Of a stretch of 22,650 bases of DNA, positions 1,372-21,989 are shown in pieces. Numbering within the stretch: the first letter of the stretch is position 1; each line of letters starts with the position of its first letter. Source of the DNA: a virus; the IMG/VR virus record IMGVR_UViG_3300008448_000715, positions 1 through 22,650 of that record. One strand, given 5' to 3'. The translations under genes were made by a program, and so were the position numbers. The notes under the pieces are model-generated. The model had not been told where the DNA came from and made no database searches. It worked only from the letters and a program-made list of their open reading frames with translations.

Positions 1372-3006
1372 CTAACTGTTCAGTTTCACTATAGCTTCAA
1401 TAATGCCTTCACCAGCGTCTGTTTTGTTTTCCAAACTGCGACCAATAACATTAAAAGGTGAAAGTTCATTTTTTGCACCAGCTCTAGCTAAGCCATTACC
1501 TGCACTGACTAAACGATCTCCTTTTTTCACCGGGCCAATTACTCTAACTGGCACTCTACCGTTTACAGCCACTGGCGGATGCGTATCATCTGATCCTGCT
1601 GCTCCATTCATCAAATATGCTGCTCTGGTGCTAATTACTCCAAACACATCTTCGCTTAATTCTTGATCTTCTGATGTAATTTCTTTAACGCCCCCAATGG
1701 CCACTACTGTCCCTGCTGCATATGGCTTATCTGCTTCAAATCTTTCTGCCAAGTCAGCGTATTGTGCTTGAACTGATACGCCATAGAATGTGTTAAACCA
1801 CATTCCAGTGCTTCCTAAGTTGACCGAGATATTTGATGTTGGTAAAATTGTGCCCGACGCATAAACAGTATGAACATTCGCATTGGCAGCAAAAATATTA
1901 CCAATAAGCATGCTCTGTGTAAAAACATTACTCCATCTATTTGTTGTGTTTCCTAGTGTGTATGTAACGTTGGCAGACGGATTCAAACTGGCAGAGAACG
2001 TGCTGATTCCGGTACCTCCGCCTAGCTGTGTATCAACATAATTTTTTGTTGCCAATGTCAGCGCAGGCGATGATATTGTCGGATTGGCGTATGCTTCTGG
2101 TAATCCAGTGATTGTGTTTCCTCTTAAAAAAGGTGTTTGAACTCCACCAGTTTTTACACTCAACACTAGATCGCGATTATTCGTTTGATTTCTTAAAGTT
2201 ACAACACCGCCGCTTACTGATGCTACAAAATCTCCGGATTGACCTAAAGTTAATCCACCATCGCTTGCTGCACCACTGAGTGTAAGCGCACCTGAAATTG
2301 TGCCCGAAGTGTCATTTCTTAAAAATGCTGTTCCTGGAACTTTTACACCACTTACAAACAAACTTACAGCTACATCTGCATTTCCATAAAACGCTTGGCT
2401 TAAATCTGTGCTAAGATTCAATCCTCTGTTTATTTGTGAAAATCCACTAACGGCGGTTGTAAAAGCTGCTTCTTTGCTCCATATTCCAACTAGAGTACTA
2501 TCAATATAAAACTTTAAAACCACGTAGGTTGCAGCAGGACTAATTGCGGCAATAGTATCTGGGATTGCCCCGCTATTGCCAGTAGATGTGGTAGCCGCAG
2601 GACCAATGGTAGTCCAGCTGGATCCTGTCCATACTTTTAGTTGTCCATTTACTGTATCAAACCATTGCTCGCCGGCCACTGGAGTGGAAGTAAAACTAGA
2701 GGCATAAGTCATTGTGGCAATTGTTTTCCACACTGCTGCGGCCGTGCCCTTTGTTGAAGCTGTGTTTATATTCAAATATTTGGTGACAGTATTCCACCAT
2801 AATTGTCCCGGTAAGGGAGCAGTAGGTTGCGACCCATTGGCAAAATTCTCTAGCAATCTAACCATGTTTTGATTTAAGAATATGCCATATCCAGGGTAAT
2901 TTTTACCGACTAAAGTAAGACTGCTGTTAGTGTTATCAATCGTGCCATCAGCAAGACCTCCACTAATTAAAGCAGTCCCGTTAGTTAGGGTAATATTATA
3001 AGCCAT
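1372..3006 (-). CDS. Tail-fibre-like protein (544 aa), paralogue of the 434-aa neighbour
   Basis: The ATG at 3006 has a strong GGAG ribosome-binding site (3017-3020) and its own late-promoter octamer (3029-3036) in the 40-bp gap. N-terminal module: 'NSSLTLVGKNYPGYGIFLNQ', 'NMVRLLENFANGSQP' and 'LPGQLWWNTVTKYLNINT'. A second copy of the GQLWFDT unit follows at about 111-138 ('AGEQWFDTVNGQLKVWTGSS'). The middle includes 'LTLATKNYVDTQLGGG' near residue 320, a typical phage fibre motif. The C-terminal domain (416-544) begins 'YADLAERFEADKPYAAGTVV' and contains 'VNGRVPVRVIGPVKKGDRLV', as in the 434-residue protein. The whole is Ser/Thr/Gly/Asn-rich and beta-like. I infer a trimeric fibre; the receptor is unknown. 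Confidence 0.84.
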   Translation of the reverse strand: MAYNITLTNGTALISGGLADGTIDNTNSSLTLVGKNYPGYGIFLNQNMVRLLENFANGSQPTAPLPGQLWWNTVTKYLNINTASTKGTAAAVWKTIATMTYASSFTSTPVAGEQWFDTVNGQLKVWTGSSWTTIGPAATTSTGNSGAIPDTIAAISPAATYVVLKFYIDSTLVGIWSKEAAFTTAVSGFSQINRGLNLSTDLSQAFYGNADVAVSLFVSGVKVPGTAFLRNDTSGTISGALTLSGAASDGGLTLGQSGDFVASVSGGVVTLRNQTNNRDLVLSVKTGGVQTPFLRGNTITGLPEAYANPTISSPALTLATKNYVDTQLGGGTGISTFSASLNPSANVTYTLGNTTNRWSNVFTQSMLIGNIFAANANVHTVYASGTILPTSNISVNLGSTGMWFNTFYGVSVQAQYADLAERFEADKPYAAGTVVAIGGVKEITSEDQELSEDVFGVISTRAAYLMNGAAGSDDTHPPVAVNGRVPVRVIGPVKKGDRLVSAGNGLARAGAKNELSPFNVIGRSLENKTDAGEGIIEAIVKLNS

Positions 3007-3028
3007 GTGTAAAGTTCTCCAACTTGTT

Positions 3029-3036
3029 TATTTATC
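3029..3036 (-). promoter_or_regulatory. T4-type late-promoter octamer upstream of the 544-aa fibre gene
   Basis: The minus strand reads GATAAATA in the 40-bp gap after the 434-residue gene. It is 22 bp before the ATG, with GGAG at 3017-3020 between them. The expected transcript start (about 3023) leaves a short leader containing the full ribosome-binding site. Confidence 0.7.
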
Positions 3037-3046
3037 AATAGTTTTT

Positions 3047-4351
3047 TTACATTCTTCCTGCTAAAATATCAATAGTAGCAGTGGTATTACTTGAAACGTT
3101 GGTTAAGGATTTTCCAATGATTGCACCCATAATAGGCAAATCTGCTCGTTTAGCATGACCGGCAATATGAGAAGTAGTAAGCATATCGCCAACCGCCACA
3201 GGCCCAATAACCTTGCACGGAACTCTTCCTTGTAAAGCTATACAACATCTTGTTCCTTCCAGCTGCTGATTCATTACAAATGCTGGATTGGTAGTTACTA
3301 CCCCGGCTACCTTGATATCATTTTCAACTTTAGAAATAGTTACTTCTGCGGATCCACCAAAACTCAAAACTGTGCCTGGTTCATATGAATCATCGCTTCT
3401 GAAGTATTCTGCCAAATCAGCGTACAAAGCATTTATGGTAGAATTAGTTCCTAAAAACCATTGTCCTTTTATTGTTACTGGAGTAGTTGCATCGTTTGAT
3501 CCTGCTGCAGAAATTACAGTTATACCGCCTGGTGTTTTAAAATTAATTACTGTATTACCGGTGCCTGTATTGTTTAATACAACGTTGCTATTTAACCTTA
3601 ATTCAGTGACATCAATTGGCCCACCACCGGAACTTATGGATAAAACATTTGATTGCAAAGCACCAATATTGCCCCAAGCTGCGTTTATATTTGCTTGTAA
3701 ACCAACTATGCTATTGTGTTGAACAACTGCATTAGATTCCAGATTGTTCAATAACACGGCCTGTGCTGATGCATTTGAAGAAAGATTTCCCAAAATGTTT
3801 GCTTGTACCGCAGCATTGGCCGTTAAATTATTAATAAAACTATCTACATAAATTTTGGTGGTTATTCCCAAATTGTTTGTAGCATTACCATTTACTGTTA
3901 GCAAGCCCGAATCGCCTGCTATATTCAAAACATTTGTGCTTACACCAGAAATATTTGAAAATATAGAAATGTTTCCGTTTGGAGCTTTATTAATAACTTT
4001 TACGTTTCCAGTTAAATCTTGTATTTCAAAAGCCTGAGTTCCCAAGAACAAATTACCTGTGGCTGTTAAATTTCCAAGAATTGATCTACCTACCGACGAC
4101 CATGTGTTTGAACTAGTATAAACTTTGACAGTATCATTGGTAGTATCAAACCACAATTGTCCTCTAATTGGATTAACAGGACTGGTATTAAACGCAAAAT
4201 TTTCTAACAGACGAACAAAGTTTTCATTTGTTTGATCGCCATAATTTGCAACTAAACGCCCAAACAAAGTGAGACTGGTACTGGTAGTATCTTTGGTACC
4301 ATCTAAAACAACTATTACGGATCCGTCGGTTTTATTTACAAAATATGGCAT
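3047..4351 (-). CDS. Tail-fibre-like protein (434 aa), paralogue of the 544-aa neighbour
   Basis: The ATG at 4351 lies 4 bp after the preceding stop, and the AGGA that overlaps that stop serves as ribosome-binding site. The N-terminal module (residues 1-90) contains 'STSLTLFGRLVANYGDQTNE', 'NFVRLLENFAFNTSP' and 'RGQLWFDTTNDTVKVYTSSN'. The middle (about 165-245) contains 'TTKIYVDSF' and then an Asn/Ala/Leu-rich stretch with repeating 'LxxNxxxQxxxLxNLxSNA' spacing that could form a trimeric coiled coil. The C-terminal domain (310-434) starts 'YADLAEYFRSDDSYEPGTVL' and includes 'LQGRVPCKVIGPVAVGDML'. N- and C-terminal modules match those of the 544-residue protein while the middles differ. This suggests two fibres, or two parts of one fibre, with common attachment and tip or trimerisation domains. 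The role in adsorption is inferred. Confidence 0.82.
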   Translation of the reverse strand: MPYFVNKTDGSVIVVLDGTKDTTSTSLTLFGRLVANYGDQTNENFVRLLENFAFNTSPVNPIRGQLWFDTTNDTVKVYTSSNTWSSVGRSILGNLTATGNLFLGTQAFEIQDLTGNVKVINKAPNGNISIFSNISGVSTNVLNIAGDSGLLTVNGNATNNLGITTKIYVDSFINNLTANAAVQANILGNLSSNASAQAVLLNNLESNAVVQHNSIVGLQANINAAWGNIGALQSNVLSISSGGGPIDVTELRLNSNVVLNNTGTGNTVINFKTPGGITVISAAGSNDATTPVTIKGQWFLGTNSTINALYADLAEYFRSDDSYEPGTVLSFGGSAEVTISKVENDIKVAGVVTTNPAFVMNQQLEGTRCCIALQGRVPCKVIGPVAVGDMLTTSHIAGHAKRADLPIMGAIIGKSLTNVSSNTTATIDILAGRM

Positions 4352-5060: not shown

Positions 5061-8000
5061 GGTATATAACTAGGCTCCGCTCTAATAAACTGCGCACCTA
5101 CGGTATTGCTGTTTTGGAGTGTAGTGCTGAATTGTTCCCAAATATTACTACGCAATACAGGTGTACTTGATAGTACCACATTACCATTTGCATACACTGA
5201 ACCAAGAGTTGTAATACTTAACACATTTGCAGTTGTGCTACTAAAACCGTTTGTAATACTTGCTATATTAACTCTAGTACCAATATTTGCAGCAGTTTGG
5301 AAAATGCCATTGACATTTTCCACAGCTACAACGTTGCTTGAAATTACACTGTCTAGTATTCTTGCATTGCCTGTATTACCAATGAACTGTGTAATGTAAT
5401 CACCAATGTTTGCTGTGATATTTGCACTCAAAACAAGTTTAAAGGTAACATTAGATGTAACTTTGAGGTTTCCTGTAATTGTGATAGGATTGAAAATTTG
5501 TGCATTTGGTATTAATTGTTGTTCACTGCTGTCTGACACTATGTTTCCAGCTAAAATTACATTAGCTACACCGGTTCCATCTACACCACGACGCAACTGT
5601 CTTAACGAATTAAGAGTAATCAATTGAATGTTTGCTGAATTGACATATACATTGGCATTCGCATAAACATTACCTGTGGTAAGATACACATTACTATCTA
5701 GTGAAATTAGAGTTTCAATTGGTATCGTAGTATTAGCTGTCCACGGAATGGCTGTTGACATTTTTGCAAAATCATACTTTTGATAGTATATAATTTTTTC
5801 GCCATTGATAAACACAATACCTGGATTGGCAGTTGCACGTGAAGGTGTAGGCAATTTTGCAGCGTTGATTACTCTAATTTCATCATCAATCATATTCAGA
5901 TTGGCAGCAAGTGTTGTTGAAGCGTTAGCACTTATTCTTGTATATTCTATGTTTGCACTCATTGGCTGAAATACTCTATAGCCATAAATGGCAGTATTAC
6001 CAGCAGTATTGCTAAACACACGCATTTCAACAGCGTCATACATTCTACCAGGAATCAATTCTTCTGGTGCATGACTTGAGTATCTATCAACATATGCGCC
6101 GCCTACTATATTGATATCCTGCGGTCTGATACCTAAATTGCTATCCAAGTAGGTACTGTAAATATTTGAATCTAATACATCTTTTAGATCTAAATAACAA
6201 ATTTTAACTTCAACATTCCCGCCGGTGGTTATCTCGGCTATATTTGATGAGTAAGTTATTCCGTTAACGGTTACAACATTGCCTTGAGACACACGGAAAG
6301 ACGGAGTAGAATAAATTATTGATAGATTGCGTGAGCTGACTACTGATTCTAGCACATAGGCATTGGCTGTATTATTGGCCTGGCTTATCCAATCGCCGCG
6401 ATTAGCAGTCACAGGGTTGTCTAACAAGATGTTCCAGGTTGTTTCAACAGGTTGACCAGTCAGGGTCATTGAATCTCTGTTTACGTTAACAATAGTAAAA
6501 TAACCATTGTTTTGAAAATCAAACGGAACATTTGCTTCTATCCTGATGCTTTGATCAATCTCGAATCCTTGTTTAATAAAATCAAATGCAGCAATATTAC
6601 CGCTATTGATTGTTAAACCTTCATAATCAAAAGAAACAATGTTGCTCGAGACTTCAAAAGCATTAGCTCTAAATTCTGGCCCTTGAATGTAATTACCAGG
6701 ATAACTTATACCGTTTATCAGTTGAGGTAAAACTTTGCCTGGCATACCAACTTGAGGTTGGTAGTATGCTGCAATTCTATCAACTGCATTTAGAAGGACG
6801 TTGCCGCTTTCAATTTTGGTAAATCTAGTAAAATCAAATATGGATTCAGTGGTTATGTTTGCATTTGTAGCTATGTAAGCTTCATTGTTGTACACAACTA
6901 TATTGCCAGAAGTGATATAAACATTACCAACGTCAACAGTGGTGTTTCCTGCAACAACAACTGTGTTGGCAAATGCCTTGTTTGGCTCCCAAATGACAAC
7001 ATTACTTGTGTAGGCCAATCTATCAAACTTTAACAATGTATCAATGCTTCTAACTAGATTATAACTTAAATTTGCCTGGGAAGCATAAAACTCATTTTTC
7101 AGTAAGGGATAAGCAGTTGCACCTACTCCATCTCCATTGATAAACACATTTGGAGTAGATGTATAACCTGAACCAGCACTCACAACCGTAATACCACTGA
7201 CTTTACCGTTAGCATATAATGTTGTGATAGCAGAAGCTCCGGTACCGCCACCACCAGTGATTTCAACATTAGGAGGTAATATATAATTCAATCCTATGTT
7301 GCCAATTATATAATCAGTAATTTTAAACTTATAATTGTTGATCCAATCTGTATATATGTCTTTTGTCAATAAATTGGCATCAGCTGGATCAGTCAGGCTA
7401 GGACTTTTAAAAGTGTCTGACTGAATGTCGTATGAACTAGGTAAATCAAAGTCAGTCCAATCACCAAGTGCATCATCTTGTCTTGAATAGATTGGAATGT
7501 ATTCTCTAATTTGTGTTCTATATGGTTTTACTTCATTGATATAATCATTGTAAAAACTTTGATTGTCTCGTACATAATTAGGAAACTCCTCTAAAGTTCT
7601 AAGATTATGATATACATCAATGAAACTTGTTTTGAATACCCAATCAGGATTTTTCTGTTCGGCAAAGATATAATTAATAATTGTCAAAAATAATTTATTA
7701 AATTCGACACTTAAATTGTCAGTCAAAATTTCTTGATAGACACTGTCGTATATGTTTTGTAATTCCTTAACAGCCTGTGGATCATATTCAACAGAATCAT
7801 ACACAACACTATCATATCCAGGACCTTTTGAAACATCATATACTGATGAATTTATTTGTAAAGTCCCGTTCTGAGCACCTATCAATTCATAACTGCCATC
7901 AGATGAAACTTCGTATAGTAGCCAATCTCCTTTACCATCATCTAAAATTTTAATGTAGTCACCCACAGATGGAGTCAATGCTTGTGTTTCACTATAGAGA

Positions 8001-11000
8001 TTTACTGTGTAGTTTATTACTTTGCCGTTTTGAAAAGTGCTAGCATACCAATCAATTGGTGTCCAAAACAATGATGTTTTAAAACTTTGCAGTTTATCAA
8101 CTTCAAAATTATCTGTGGCAGAATTGTATCTATAGATAGCCCATTTGCCTTGATATGTTGAATCGCTTAAAACTAATACTTTATAGTTTTCTACAAAGGA
8201 ATCGGTGTCAAGATAAGACAAATCAACCACACTGTCAATTTGAGTATCAAATCCCACAGTCGGAATAGGATCCTCCAGGTACAGTGTTGAAGGAGTTTTA
8301 ATTAAAAGTATTGCGTAATTTACAAAAATGCCATTTAATGTTTCTATGTAATTTTGTAGTGCAACCAATCTATTCAATAATAAAGATTGACGTGGAAAAT
8401 TCAATATGCCCAGTTTTTCTTGCACAGGTAAAAGTGGATCCGGGACACTTTGTCCATTTGCATCAAATCCGCTTAGACTATCTTTCAATTTGTCTATAAC
8501 TCTTGATGGTATTGATCCAGCACCTGCATCTTGTTGAACCAACTGCCATTCATTATGAATCAAATTAGAATTTCGTTCTTGAGATAATTCTAACCGGATC
8601 ACAACATCATTGCCGCTCAATTTATCTGTAATGTTATAAAGTGCTACCGCGTTAGGTTTGAGCAAGGCCAAATACGGAATGTTTTGATCTTTTGGATTTG
8701 TGATATATGATTCTAAAGATCTGGCACTCAAAGTTCTTAAGGCACGATTAACATCTACAGTTGTTTTGCCAGATACCCAATAGTAATATTTTTGATTGAT
8801 TATGCCAGTGACTGGGTCAATCACTGTGACAGATGTGTATGCGGAGTTGTCAGGATATCTTGGTACGCCATCGCCAACAGAATCTTCATATTGACTAGGC
8901 AAAAAATCACTTTCAATCCATTCGTAAATTGTAACAACACTGCCAGGGAATAAACTGCCCCAATTTTTAGTTCTATATTGTATGCTGCTCTGTTCATAAT
9001 CTATAAAACTCATAGTGGAGAGATCTAGCCATGTTTTTCCTACCTGTTTATCAGACCAGTAAAACTTGCCGTTGTTGATTGTGTCTGATCTATTAGAGGC
9101 ATTATAACTTGCAGGGTCGTACTCTTCTTTAAAATCAAGTTCTTGATCTACTACACCTAAAAGTTTGCCTTTGGCAGGATCCAAATAATCAAAAAAATCA
9201 ATGATATTTTGTGTTATTGTGTTGTATATAAATGAACTGTTTAAAGCACCTATGTCTACACGTGGTTCTTTGTATCTGAGTAAAGTCCACCCAGATTTGG
9301 CATTTTGATTGTAGTAAAAATATATGCTGCCACCGCCAGGAACAACGTTCAAATCGTTAGAAACTCCCACAGTTAAATACTCGCCACGTAGTGCAATGCT
9401 TGCTCCAAAATTAAATCCACTTTGTAAGTCTGGACCTACAAGTTTTTGTGAATAAGCAAATAATGAAGGATTATCGGCGTCTTCAAATGGATTAGGCATT
9501 AGGTTGTAAACATAAACGGCTCCGCTGTCTGTTATAAATTGAATAAATTTTGTTCCACTACCGTCAAAAGTTGTAGGCAATCCTGACTCAAAATCAAATG
9601 TAGTTGGTATAGGCATATCGGCACCATCACTACCTATTGCCAATGTGTTTGTGATTTGATCAACTGCCAGCGCAGTGCCAAAAACTTCGCCTAAATCTTG
9701 TGGTTGTCTGAATGTTTGAACATATTGGTATAGAAGAATTCCTAAATCATCTAGCGCAGTGCTAAATGATGATCCATTTGTAATATTCAATTTGTCAGCA
9801 GCAACCTTTACATCACTGACTATCTTTAATTTTCCGTCTTGGGCTGTAGCAGTAACACCAGGAATATTCGCCCCATTAATATTGGAAATTACTGAATTTA
9901 AAGTAGTGCCGGTGAATGTAATAAAAATATTATTGATAACAATACTATGTCCAGCTGTAACAACTGGATTTACCACAGTACCTAAAACTACCCCATAAAC
10001 TCTTCCTAGATTTAGATACCTGGCTACTGTACCTTTTCTATAACTGGCCTCTGTGTACTCAGGACTAGAAACATAAATGTTGCAACCGCTATTACACATT
10101 GCCAACAGTTGACCAAACTTGCCTCCTTCTAGACCGACAAGCTCAGGATAAATTGCTTGATCAAACAATACTCCATTGGATTCCACTTTGATTACATTAC
10201 CGCGTGGCAATACAGGAATACCTGCACCTCCGTACTGTATAAGGTTAGAATTAATTACACTGTAAGAAGGAGATACCCCAGGTGGAGCATTTGTTATGTC
10301 ATAAATTAATTCATCGTTGAGATAGACTTTATATGACAAACCTAAATTATACGGTAGTGCAAAGGTGTTAGAAAGTCCATTGGTAAAAATTTCGTTAACT
10401 GTTGTATGCCAAACCTGTACGCTACCTGCATTTAGCAATCCGTTTATTGTAGTTGTGCTTGCGCCAATTGCTATGTTATAACCTTCTGAATTGCAAACAA
10501 CTGCTGATCCAAAATTTGAATTTATGCCGCCGTTGATGGTTTCAAAATAAGCATATTTTTGAGGTCTGGTCAACACATTGATGTCAAGACCGTTTGCTGG
10601 TGCAGAGGAAAATACCAAATTGGTAATTGTTCCTACTCCTGTTAACAATATAGTGATATCATTGGCAGGCGAAGATCCCCCAATAAGAGTACCTGCAATA
10701 GTAAGAGTATCCCCAATGATAACTGTTGGCGGGCCCGGATCTGGTTGTGTATATCCGCTTCCTGCGTTTTCTAATTCTACTCGGTAAACCAGCGTGGCTA
10801 AGTCGTCAATATATTTTTCTACATAAAACTTGGCTCCAGAACCAGATCCTCCAGTAGCAGATATTCCAGTATATATTGCGGGGCTTCCTGTGGCTGTTCC
10901 GGACGCAGTAAAATTTTTGATACCTTGACTTGCAGTGGCTAAAGTATAATCAATATAAGGAAAATATTGCGAATTTATTAGAGGAGCTACTACCAATATA

Positions 11001-14000
11001 TCAATCGCAAGTGTTGGAGATATATCTAGGGTATAAGCGGTATTGCCAGACGATTGTAAAATTTGTACTTGTGTAGTTCTAGGATAATCCAGAGTATAAC
11101 AAAATACTTTATCTGCTCCTGGTGCACCAACGTAAAGATATTTGGCATCATCTGACATGGCCAATGATGCTCCAAATTTATCCGTAGCAGTTGGTGAATC
11201 GTTGGCTAGAACTTGAACTAATGTTTGATTTACAAAAATGTAAACCACACCACCATTACTGGAATTTGGAGCTCCTACTGCTAGATAACTAACACCACTT
11301 ATGGTAGCAGTTGCTAAAACTGTACCAAAGCCGACTAGACTGGGATTAATTGCATTGAGAAAACCGTATGCGTCCCATCCATTATTAATGTTTCTTGCAA
11401 AAATGCTGACCCTGCCTGTGCCGCTTTCTGGTGCACCACCATACAAATATAGTGCCAAGTTATCAAATGCCACTGATCGACCAAAATGATCGTTTCCGGA
11501 GTATTGACTTATTCCTAATTGAATCTTTGATTCAAATCCCCAAGGATCAGTTTTTTGGTATACGGCCCAATTATTTTGTCCATCTGAATCTCTAACCCAA
11601 ACCGTATCATTTAAAATCCAACCATCATATGGAATATTATTAACAAGATCAATAGGAGTATCTAAAATACTACTCTTCAACTTGTACAAAATTCCAGTTG
11701 ATATTACAGCTTCTTCGTCTATTAGTTCCTGTAAACTATTTGATATTGTAATTAAAATTCTTGTGCTGTCGATTACAGAATCAACTTTGTAAATTGCATC
11801 AAATCTAGTATCAAAATTTTTAAGAGCAATTAAATCATCTTGCTCAAGTCCGTGTTCTGCATTAATAACTAGCTCGGCTTGAGAATCTATATTATATCGT
11901 AATAAAAAAGGTACTCCAGGGACATTTGTAGCTCTAAATACATTCCATTGTCCATTTAGATCTTTAGCAGTCCATATAGTATAACCTACTCCTATATCGT
12001 TTATCAAACGCGAGTTTGTGCTGTCTAAAATGTTAAAAATTGTATCGTCTATATCATCTAAATTAATAAATCCAGCCACTGGTAAAGGTTTGAGTTCTTC
12101 TGGTTGGTTTATATTTTCTGTTCTTAAAAAATCTTGAGTAAAAACAATGTTAGATTTATAAATGTCAGGCTGTTCAAATGAGACTACATCAGTTTGACGT
12201 GTAGCTGTGCCGTCAACAACTTGAAATACAGCAGGATTATTGTTAAACAAAGAATCAGACAATACAAATTCTAAGAATTGATTTATATCAGTGGCACCGT
12301 ATTCGCCTACTCTCACAGCCCAGTTTTCAAATACCTCTAAAGGTTGAGTATCTAAATTGTTAAACTTGGCGCCTTTAATTGCATAAATTGCATTCAGAGT
12401 GCCACCTTGTTTTACCAAGCCCTGATAAAATTTGCTTTGGGTTGTTAAATCAATCCCTAAATTGGTAAAATATTGTCTAGGTCTAAAGCCTATCAATCCA
12501 TTGCTGAACAATTGAATTTGTTCGTCTATGGGTTGATCATTGATGTCATAATAATTTAAGGACTGGGAGGCATTGGTAGCAAAATTGTTTATGACACCAG
12601 TTTTAATCTCTCCTGCATTTAGCAATTTCCAACTTGCAGATTGAAAATTATCACTGGCAGTAATATTTTCTAATGCAGTATAAAATCTTTGTTTGTAAAA
12701 TACTATAGATCCCTTGAGATAATCTACTCCTTGACTCCAATCATTGAATTTGTTGCTGCTGTAGATAAATCCTGGTAATTCTAAACTACCGTTCCACTGA
12801 CTGGTCTTTGCTCCAATCAGTTTTAGTCTATATTGTCTATTGCCAGTCTCTGGCAAATATATAATATCTCTGAATACAGTGGTGTTATCAAGTATCAACA
12901 AATGTTCATATTGGACTAAATTTAATTCAGCATATCCAATGGTCTGATTTGCTAGTGCTTTGATAGAAAATTGATTGTTCTCTCTAACTATAGTAAAATT
13001 ATTTTTTATGATAGGAGTATAATTAACATCTAGTACACGACTACCAGTAGAAGTATTTGTGATTTCGTCAATTACTGCAGATGAATTTACAACTTTTAAA
13101 GTGTCTGAAATTGGACTTAGAACAATAATGTTGCCTTCCTTCCATCCTTGAGTTGTCCAATGTAAAAATTCTTTGGCGCTTAATACCCAATTTTTAATTT
13201 CTAACAATAAAGTGTCTTTGTCATCAAATTTAAAACCTTGTTGATTTAGATATCTTTCATAGCCAACTAAAAAATCAACCACCTGTTGTTTGGTGTTAAA
13301 TTCAAAACCATACGGAACCACAGTTGTAGTATTTCGAGAATTTTTGTAGATAGTGGCTCGTTGGCCGCTTACACTGATTGTGTAAGCGTTATTATTTTGC
13401 AAACTAGGTATTACTGTAAAATATGGGTCATTGCTATTATAACCACTTACAGTATATCCATTCACTGTTTTTTCAACAATTACAGCAGAATACACCAGTT
13501 TAGCTAAAGGTGCACCTTTGTATAATTCAATTGAATAATTTTCTTCAGGAACAACAATACTGTCATTGATACTGCTCGGACTTACCTGTTCTGCCAGAAT
13601 CTCTAAAAACTTTTTGTCAGAGTACCCGGCCATTTTGTATGCCAATTGCACTGACAAAGTGTTAAGATTATTTTTAACTACAGCACCAGCATCTCTTACA
13701 CCTGAGTTTTTTATGTAGTCTCTAATCCAATTTATATAACCAGCACTTCTTTCAACCTCATTGTTGTTGTCAACAAAACCATTTACTCTGATTGACGTTG
13801 GTTGTATATGTTTGCCATCATCAACATTCACGAACTGTCCAAGCACACTGCTTCGTACAAATTTCTTAACATCGGCCAACAAAGAAAAATATTTTGCCGG
13901 CTTACCAATAGCCAATGCGTATTGCATAGCAAATGCAAAATCGCTGCTTCTTCTCCATGCCAATTCAGTTGGTCCTATATCACCGACTGAAAAACTTGCA

Positions 14001-17000
14001 TTTGCTCTTAAACTGTCAAAATCAGTAACTAAAAATTCTGAGGGCGGTCTTAAATTACCACTATCATCAACCGGTATTATAGATGTTAGCCCAGGCCTGG
14101 TATATCTTAAATCTATGCCGGCACGTGGACCAGAATGTATATATCCCGATTCTAGATCTCCCCATAAAACATAATTTCCTCCGGTGTAAGGTGCAGGGCC
14201 ATATCTATCATTCCAGTAATCTGGCTTTTCACTAAACCCTAACATTTCCCAAGGATGAGTATGTGGCCTATCAGTATCAAAGAAATATCTAAATATACTA
14301 CGCCAAGTACCTGGTAAATTTTCGGCATTTATTACATCTCTGAAATTTTTATAGTTCCATGTGAAAGCATCTGATGATTCAAAAACATCATTGGTAGTAA
14401 AGTTTACTCGATTGGTTCCTACCCATCGTAGAAAACTTTGGCTTAATAGTTGATCAAATTCTTGCCTTGAATAATCTACCAATCTAAATTTTCCAGGAAC
14501 ATAATCATTGATGTTAAAAATGTTTACGTCATATTCAACTTTGATATTGTTGTATATTCTTCTTTCTAATTCTAACAACAAACTGTCTCGATAATCATTA
14601 AATGCAGGTGTAAGACTACCATCATGTCCTTGAATTACCTGGATAGGTGTTCTATACGTGTTGTCAAGATAAATTTCCGGAATAAATTTTGGATATAAAC
14701 CCAACTTGGTTGGTGTTTCAGGAACATAGCTACCATCAGTATTGTTATACTCTACAATAGTCAACAAATCATCATACAACAAATTGAAGGTATCTTGAAT
14801 TATGACCGCGGGTCTTGTTTGATCAAAATAATAATCTTGACCTTTGACCAGTAAAGTAGTGGTTGTAATATTTTCAAGTGTGCGTGTCAAGTAAACAAAA
14901 ACTGCTTTGTTGCTAATGACACTGTCTTGAAAGATATTGGTAATTTCATATGCTCTTATATCTGTATCAAATACTCTATAACTGGGCAGAGTTGTTTTAT
15001 CAGAATCACCATATGGAACCATGTCGCTGTAATGCCAAGGAAAGCTGTCATTTTTAACGTTGTTTATCACTGCCATTATTGCATCAACAGACTGGCTGAC
15101 ATTGGTTCTATCTAGGTCTAGATTTGCTGCTAGTTCCAGAAATTTGTATTTGAATTGTGTATATTCTTTTGATGCTAATCGCAGTGAATCAACAAAATTC
15201 ATTGTTGGATGATTCAAGAAAAGTCCTGCGTACACAATTGGTGCGCTATGTTGCAAAATAGTACCACTGCGATTTGCAAAATAAATGTCCCGTAAATTGC
15301 TGTTACCAGGTACTTCACCAACAATATCCAAACTGTTATTTTTAAATTCAATTAAATGATTTCTAACCTGACCCAAAGTTAATGTTTCTAAATCATCATT
15401 TAAACTGTTGACGTCATAATTTAAAGGAATTTGATAAAATGCAGTGGGCGAAACATCTGTATTGTTAAAAATTTGAATAAAGACTGCATCGTTGACAGTC
15501 AAAAGATCTGGATTGATTAGAACAGCTAGTTTATCGACAGCTTTGGTAATTGCAAATTGTCCTGTTGAAACCAAAGTTCTATTGACAATAACTTTGATAT
15601 TGGGAACATTTACGCTTAAATTTGGTAAAATGTCAATTGGAAACAAATTGGTAGAACCATCATATGTAAAGCTGAAAATTTGGTACTGTTTACTGAAATT
15701 GCTATTAATGGTCCAAGTGTTTAATCTTACACTGGTATCTCTAGTAATATTTTTTTGTAAAAGCCCTGTATTAACAGTTACAGTTTCACTGACTCCACCG
15801 TTTATGAGATATGTAAATGTGTCAGTCTGAAAATTGTTTTCAAATTGAATATCACCTTGTGTTATGAAATTTTTATAACTTAAAGGAAAACCCAAAACAG
15901 GGTCGTTGGTACCTGTGCCTTGTTTGTATGAAAATATTTTGGTACCCGGAAACTGTGATCCGTTGTACACTGAAAAATCGCTAAAGCTTACACCGTCATT
16001 GTTAATGACGTCAAACAAAGGGGCCTGATTAGTTGAAGTTTTTTGTTGACTCTGAATCCAATCTGTGCCACTATAGTGCCATTGTTTTTGACCATTATCT
16101 CCGCTGTTTACAATAATTGTGTGCCCTTCTTCAACAAGGGTATCATCAGTTTCTTGAATATAAGCTCTATATATTGCAGTAACAGGAGTTGGTTTTTCTG
16201 CTTCTACTATACTAAAAGAATAAATTTTATTTCTTACGTCTAAATTGTTGTCTCTACTGAAAATTACTCTATCGCCATCAGTCAATGTAACAGTTTTGCC
16301 ATTGACAGTAATTGATAACGATGTAGGAGAAATACACTGAGCTCCTTGCACTTGTACATAAGCATTGGTAATTATATCGTCTAATATATCTACTGGTTGT
16401 TTTGCTTGAGTACCAAAGTTGAACAATTGTAAATTGGCATTAAATTCAATAATGGGTCTCAGTGCTCTAAAGTCTTGATTTAAAACAAGATCAACTTGTT
16501 TGTACTGAGCTGTTTTGGTAATTACGTCAACATGGAACCATCTATTGCTTCTTGACCAGCCATTCAAATCAATACTACTTCTATTGATTGTTATATAATC
16601 TTTATTGTCAAGATTGTCAAGTTCTGGATAAACCAAATCGTCGGCAAGTATTAATACAATGCTCTCGCCCACGCCTTCGACATAATAGGTATTACTAGAG
16701 TATGGTTCAGTGGCAGTCGAATCAAAATAAACCTTTAATCCATTTGTAAACTTTACTCCGTTGGGACTGACATAATCAATTTGTCCAACTATTTCCGATC
16801 CTGGATCAATGATCGCCAAAGTGGGATCAATAAGTTGAATTCCACCTACTGCATTGTCAGTCTGATCGCTTTGATAATAAAGTAAATTTTGATTTGCTGT
16901 TATTATAGGAACTTGATTGAAAACGTCAAATCTACTATAAAACTCTTTTCCTGCATTTGTTAAGCCAGCTGATATTTTTACTTTTTGCTCATTACTAACT

Positions 17001-21608: not shown

Positions 21609-21989
21609 TTAAGCTGCTATCACTGTGTTTAGTTCTTTATTGAATTGAAGAACCAAAACATCGCTTAAATCGTCAGGTAAAAACGTCATTTCAACTTGGA
21701 CTTGTAGGCCGTACTCAAATTGATCAATCAGTACCTCATCTACCCTTACTCTGGGGTCGTAGTTTACTACCCGTTGTATGTCATCAACAACCAAGGCTTT
21801 AACATCGGCAGTCAATTGTTCAAACAAAATAGTCCATATTATACTGCCAAATTCTGGATTCATTAATTTTTCGCCCTTGCGTATAGCAAAGTGATTGAGC
21901 AAATCACGTTTGATCAATTCAAGATCAGTCAATCTAAACTTTTTAAATTGATCTATTGTGCTGAATCCGCGGTATCTGGTAATAGCCAT
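21609..21989 (-). CDS. 25: Baseplate wedge subunit gp25-like
   Basis: The 126-residue protein belongs to the gp25/GpW-gp25 family of contractile tails, whose members are baseplate wedge components that join the inner baseplate to the sheath. The family core is visible at residues about 37-85: 'RKGEKLMNPEFGSIIW', 'LFEQLTAD', and 'VNYDPRVRVDEV', the last corresponding to the family's E/D-P-R signature. The length is normal for the family (T4 gp25 is about 132 residues). The ATG at 21989 follows a 70-bp gap. No Shine-Dalgarno is evident, and a late-promoter-like octamer ends only 5 bp upstream of the ATG. It is followed after 47 bp by gp6, matching the clustering of wedge genes in T4-like phages. 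'Lysozyme' labels sometimes attached to this family are not supported by anything visible here. Confidence 0.93.
   Translation of the reverse strand: MAITRYRGFSTIDQFKKFRLTDLELIKRDLLNHFAIRKGEKLMNPEFGSIIWTILFEQLTADVKALVVDDIQRVVNYDPRVRVDEVLIDQFEYGLQVQVEMTFLPDDLSDVLVLQFNKELNTVIAA

Follow-up and report, generated by a model that had tools for sequence, protein, structure and literature searches.

The window, as we call the whole 22,650-base stretch of DNA that was analysed, encodes on its minus strand, in this order, gp25, a gp6-like protein and a giant protein of 4336 residues (Table 1). Residues 2190-2925 of the giant (9293-11500, minus strand) hold seven FG-GAP repeats. The giant directly follows gp6, a slot held by gp7 in T4 (order 6, 7), and its homologue in phage PA5oct, gp355, which is without the propeller, is a virion protein according to an ESI-MS/MS note on its record. 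From the gene order and the virion proteomics of this homologue, we infer that the giant is part of the baseplate wedge, at the place of T4 gp7. This agrees with the preliminary description of the DNA, which had assigned the repeats to a structural protein adjoining the baseplate wedge. That the giant might be a recognisable T4 gp7 was also considered and found no support in sequence, as HMM and profile alignment gave no significant match to T4 gp7. S-PM2p081, the giant at the same gene position in S-PM2, showed no match to the cores in the part of its sequence that was compared, and nothing meaningful came up when PDB sequences were searched with the giant, with the alignment of the propeller or with the N-terminal core. 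According to PMC7029224, VrlC takes the place of T4 gp7 in pelagimyophages and cyanomyophages, with YHYH and concanavalin domains in the structural operon.

Cultured homologues of the giant were found in the jumbo phages Deifobo and PA5oct, Atu_ph07, Phosso, SCTP-2, BF and RaK2. They match residues 1 to 1950 or 2050 and residues 2927-3580 of the giant, and are wholly different in between. Residues 1777-1806 (12650-12739, minus strand) stand out as an insertion when aligned with the cultured phages and have a weak match to CBM_5_12 (E 0.0012, below cut-off); a homologue of the giant is labelled chitin-binding type-3 in one PA5oct-like record.

Table 1. Positions of genes, cores, hairpin sides, blades and inserted domains in the window (residues are those of the giant)
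Feature	Positions	Strand	Remarks
Baseplate wedge gp25	21609..21989	-	PF04965 E 2.9e-9; phrog_261, phrog_43
Baseplate wedge subunit, gp6-like, 1160 aa	18079..21561	-	phrog_10646 and phrog_219
Giant virion structural protein, 4336 aa, PHROG_10938	5057..18067	-	Profile match 1101 bits
Conserved core before graft, residues 1113-2048	11924..14731	-	Aligned with six cultured jumbo phages
Host hairpin, first side, residues 2150-2170, ends WAVY (2167-2170)	11558..11620	-	W and V invariant across relatives with and without a filling
Grafted propeller with decorations, residues 2171-2926	9290..11557	-	Boundaries from empty sites L100, L105
Blade 1, strands A-C, FG 2195	11393..11485	-	
Blade 2, strands A-C, FG 2247	11228..11329	-	
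Blade 3, strands A-C, FG 2298	11087..11176	-	
Inserted domain 1, blade 3, about 2333-2507	10547..11071	-	Mostly missing in L003, L004
Blade 4, strands A-C, FG 2519	10400..10513	-	
Inserted domain 2, blade 4, 2558-2639	10151..10396	-	
Blade 5, strands A-C, FG 2651, CNSGC motif in A-B hairpin	10007..10117	-	
Inserted domain 3, blade 5, 2690-2781	9725..10000	-	Extended in L007, L008
Blade 6, FG 2796, long conserved B-C loop, residues 2813-2849	9500..9682	-	
Blade 7, strands A-C, FG 2887	9302..9409	-	PF14312 best stretch 2874-2917
Host hairpin, second side, residues 2927-2939, WTLLRYKEPRVDI	9251..9289	-	W and VD conserved across relatives with and without a filling
Conserved core after graft, residues 2930-3580	7328..9280	-	Matched in 6/6 cultured relatives

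Repeats and predicted fold

All seven repeats noticed in the preliminary description were found, as blades within residues 2174-2930, and the first three are regularly spaced as it had stated, at 52 and 51 residues. A strict FG...GAP expression recovers six of the seven copies, blade 1 (FGRSV...YGGAP) escaping it; the FG at 2247, which is without the strict FG.[SAT] form, is picked up by a second expression. When the region was shuffled 5000 times, 97% of the shuffles were without any motif and the maximum was two. The FG-GAP_2 family (PF14312) scores 25.8 bits on the giant and 44.2 bits on the region alone, against a cut-off of 23, and matches all nine members of the first alignment. The proposed kinship with the FG-GAP and integrin families thus stands for FG-GAP_2 and not for FG-GAP proper (PF01839), which gave no match when the virus record was searched. 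Profile matches to most of the repeats, likewise, come from a blade profile built from relatives, which finds six or seven blades in most relatives, and not from Pfam, which passes unaided on two stretches only.

An alignment of 27 related sequences was used to examine conservation. In blade 6 the G of FG is present in 85% of the sequences; in the other six blades it is invariant. The DxDxDGxxD calcium loop is absent from all 27 sequences, in keeping with the earlier remark that the copies have no clear calcium loops, and the A-B hairpins are short; PF14312 repeat proteins likewise have short A-B hairpins without calcium loops. Judged by its sequence, the propeller is a member of FG-GAP_2 rather than of the calcium-binding FG-GAP of integrins. 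Unlike other PF14312 proteins, it is embedded in a 4336-residue protein of the baseplate region and decorated with domains. Blade 5 contains a CNSGC-type cysteine pair (C2658 and C2662, within residues 2657-2663; 10079-10099, minus strand) that is invariant in the 27-sequence alignment, for which the search pattern had partly selected, and absent from the compact propellers described below.

AlphaFold2 modelling of residues 2150-2960 from the same number of aligned sequences gave a mean pLDDT of 83.9 and a pTM of 0.81. Foldseek placed integrins first (E 1.8e-8), with the FG-GAP protein of Atu_ph07 also among the structure matches. VIA-align matched model residues 25-781 to the whole propeller of integrin-alpha targets, with Z 36-38 and an rmsd of 2.6-3.0 over about 340-358 residues. 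The region is thus predicted to form a closed seven-bladed propeller of integrin topology, as the preliminary description had anticipated. FG and GAP-like motifs might instead have come together by chance in a beta-rich phage protein that forms no propeller. This reading could draw on the two stretches that alone pass Pfam unaided; given the shuffles, the model with its Z of 36-38 and the six or seven blades found by profile in most relatives, we consider this hardly credible.

The integrin-alpha N-terminal beta-propeller (4wjk, 5e6s) likewise has seven FG-GAP blades in a closed ring. The phage propeller differs in being part of a virion protein and in having no DxDxDGxxD calcium loops; it has the fold of the integrin head, yet with these loops tested for and absent it is not an integrin. 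The repeats are indeed interrupted by other modules, as had been noticed: three inserted domains, none of which matched a Pfam family, lie between strands C and D of blades 3-5, as read from the strand order. Some integrins have an I domain, which the extra between-strand domains of the phage propeller recall; the integrin insert lies between blades 2 and 3.

The host hairpin and its fillings

The propeller sits in a beta-hairpin, framed by WxVY (W2167) and by W2927, the first residue of WTLLRYKEPRVDI; both tryptophans are invariant when relatives with and without a filling are aligned. In two environmental contigs, L100 and L105, the hairpin is empty and reads as the uninterrupted WAVYTYNGSTWTRTRQQSPSVDI and WAVYTYNGATWDRTRQQSAKVDI; it is likewise uninterrupted in the isolates Deifobo and SCTP-2. 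L100, L105 and Deifobo have 20 residues from WAVY to VDI (or from WAVA to VDS), compared with about 770 in the window. Beside the empty hairpin of the Salicola phage SCTP-2 giant, 20214-21071 of L012 resembles a LamG-type jelly roll by eye, with no Pfam match.

Other relatives carry other fillings. In L099, L103, L104 and L096 the propeller is compact, about 420 residues long and with none of the inserted domains, and these compact forms, too, keep the long B-C loop of blade 6. L094 and L086 use the same hairpin for a YHYH domain (PF14240; E 2e-29 and 2e-31), which is unrelated to the propeller and otherwise found in baseplate and tail proteins. The YHYH domain has been predicted to be a tail-associated metal hydrolase (PMC7824862). 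L108, L113 and L127 have a small domain in the hairpin. Further upstream in these three baseplate giants lies a GDSL/SGNH esterase domain (L108 12596-13858, L127 12563-13945, L113 3930-5390), possibly an esterase of envelope or capsule polysaccharide. Since the hairpin of relatives holds nothing or an unrelated domain, it looks like a socket for exchanging surface-facing modules. It also reveals a site in a baseplate protein that naturally tolerates a domain of more than 700 residues.

Distribution and inheritance

PHROG_10938 proteins of PA5oct, Atu_ph07, RaK2, BF, SCTP-2 and Phosso share with the giant the gene order after gp6 and the cores 1-1950 and 2927-3580; they differ in having no propeller at the site, where the interval is 69 to about 1530 residues. 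Measured by the core-end method, the cores lie 114-116 residues apart in BF and RaK2, 297 apart in Deifobo, 414 apart in SCTP-2 and about 1525 apart in Phosso and Atu_ph07, in each case with no blades between them. The propeller was absent from the graft site in 6/6 cultured relatives examined. Scanning IMG/VR with the core yielded at least 598 stretches, the best 80 of which were analysed. Both cores are present in 63 of these 80 loci, 52 with blades and 11 without, in a sample that is skewed to the window's kin and includes some near-copies. The propeller is therefore common to dozens of environmental relatives and not peculiar to the window's giant.

In the tree of 92 cores, presence of the propeller accounts for 3 changes, compared with 15.8 in shuffles, although this tree was made by a quick method and by itself cannot separate gain from loss. 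On this tree, the propeller appears for the most part to have descended together with the core. L100 and L105 group with L099 and L104, so that for these two a loss is the simplest interpretation. The clade of giants with YHYH or GDSL domains is nested in the core tree, which points to replacement or loss of the propeller. The cultured relatives fall outside, on long branches, and may never have had it. Relative to the core, divergence within the window's clade is 1.61x for the blades, 1.69x for the inserts and 1.31x for the following core, making blades and inserts the most diverged of the parts compared.

We also looked for the propeller in other phages. A tblastn search of 50,697 phage records with the window propeller gave no match at E 1e-3. 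The propeller of a more distant relative gave a single weak match, to an FG-GAP gene in a tail region, and the compact propeller gave two weak matches in phage records. The propeller profile had no significant match among T4 gp6-gp11, in line with the earlier statement that T4 itself has no such module. FG-GAP repeats do occur in or near tail genes elsewhere. Atu_ph07 has 4 FG-GAP_2 matches, in gp320 beside genes annotated as tail sheath, and LR797314 has a protein named 'FG-GAP repeat'. Sinorhizobium phage Phosso has 55 matches in its genome, mostly in genes 107 and 108 (L052 4339-24979), which lie side by side and encode giant hypothetical proteins composed mainly of FG-GAP_2 repeats. All of these are separate genes, none grafted into the protein after gp6. 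FG-GAP propellers, including those near phage tail genes, are thus already known. Since jumbo phages have FG-GAP_2 in other proteins too, the module itself is not new to phages, and it is its position in this giant that appears undescribed. Our search of open-licence papers found no description of an FG-GAP or integrin-like propeller in a phage baseplate, and the graft site and the swapping of its fillings appear undescribed in that literature.

Possible functions of the propeller

Sequence, predicted fold, graft boundaries and the loss of the graft or its replacement by other fillings were shown computationally; exposure and ligand binding are inferred. In the proposed arrangement, the wedge giant would display a self-closing seven-bladed FG-GAP_2 propeller on one hairpin. 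The last blade appears to be completed by the N-terminal strand of the insert; both ends would then exit side by side, leaving the propeller pendant from the hairpin. Blades 3 to 5 would carry small domains on their C-D loops, and the propeller head would offer an exposed binding surface that touches the host envelope or capsule at adsorption. We put the chances about even that the propeller is an exposed binding module of the baseplate wedge, most likely for the host surface. The fold, the existence of empty, compact and YHYH versions, the divergence of blades and inserts, and the presence of FG-GAP_2 near jumbo phage tail genes weigh for host contact. Against it weigh the mostly vertical inheritance, the absence of integrin calcium loops and the 6/6 cultured relatives that manage without a propeller at the site; nor is the propeller hypervariable, unlike many receptor-binding proteins.

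Not far behind is the reading that the propeller is a docking platform, binding another virion protein such as a fibre or tail-pin protein and so anchoring peripheral parts of the baseplate. The same mainly vertical inheritance is consistent with docking, as are the moderate conservation and a blade 6 B-C loop conserved even in compact forms. Genes downstream of the giant in the window include proteins with tail-fibre profiles, and in PA5oct a T4 gp10-like gene lies downstream, which would also fit docking. The natural absence of the propeller in L100 and L105 and the YHYH substitute elsewhere suggest, however, that it is dispensable for the wedge. We give docking a substantial but lesser probability.

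The propeller might also serve only as a spacer or stiffener that binds nothing specifically and is retained as bulky decoration. This would fit the missing calcium loops and a hairpin that tolerates several unrelated fillings, nothing included. The FG glycines, however, are invariant in 6/7 blades across 27 sequences, and the conserved loop signature exceeds the needs of a closed fold alone, making a mere spacer improbable.

A broader form of the host-binding reading, which we advance only tentatively and think rather doubtful, is that the hairpin serves a large group of uncultured phages as a dedicated wedge socket for alternative surface modules, be it the propeller, a YHYH domain or nothing. 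The propeller would then be an integrin-like adhesive head, its blade-borne domains setting host specificity. The analysis brings a fold familiar mainly from the adhesion receptors of animal cells to the baseplate region of contractile tails in uncultured phages. One hairpin occurs naturally with a full propeller, a compact one, none or a replacement, so the idea of exchangeable host-contact modules on wedge proteins, beyond the tail fibres, is directly testable.

Two neighbouring proteins encoded at 1372-3006 and 3047-4351 (minus strand) share profile matches at their C-terminal ends, to phrog_6427 and phrog_22593. The first of them has a borderline match to the Peptidase_G2 autoproteolytic domain (PF11962), with a score exactly equal to the cut-off; this domain is typical of tail spikes and fibres that mature by self-cleavage.
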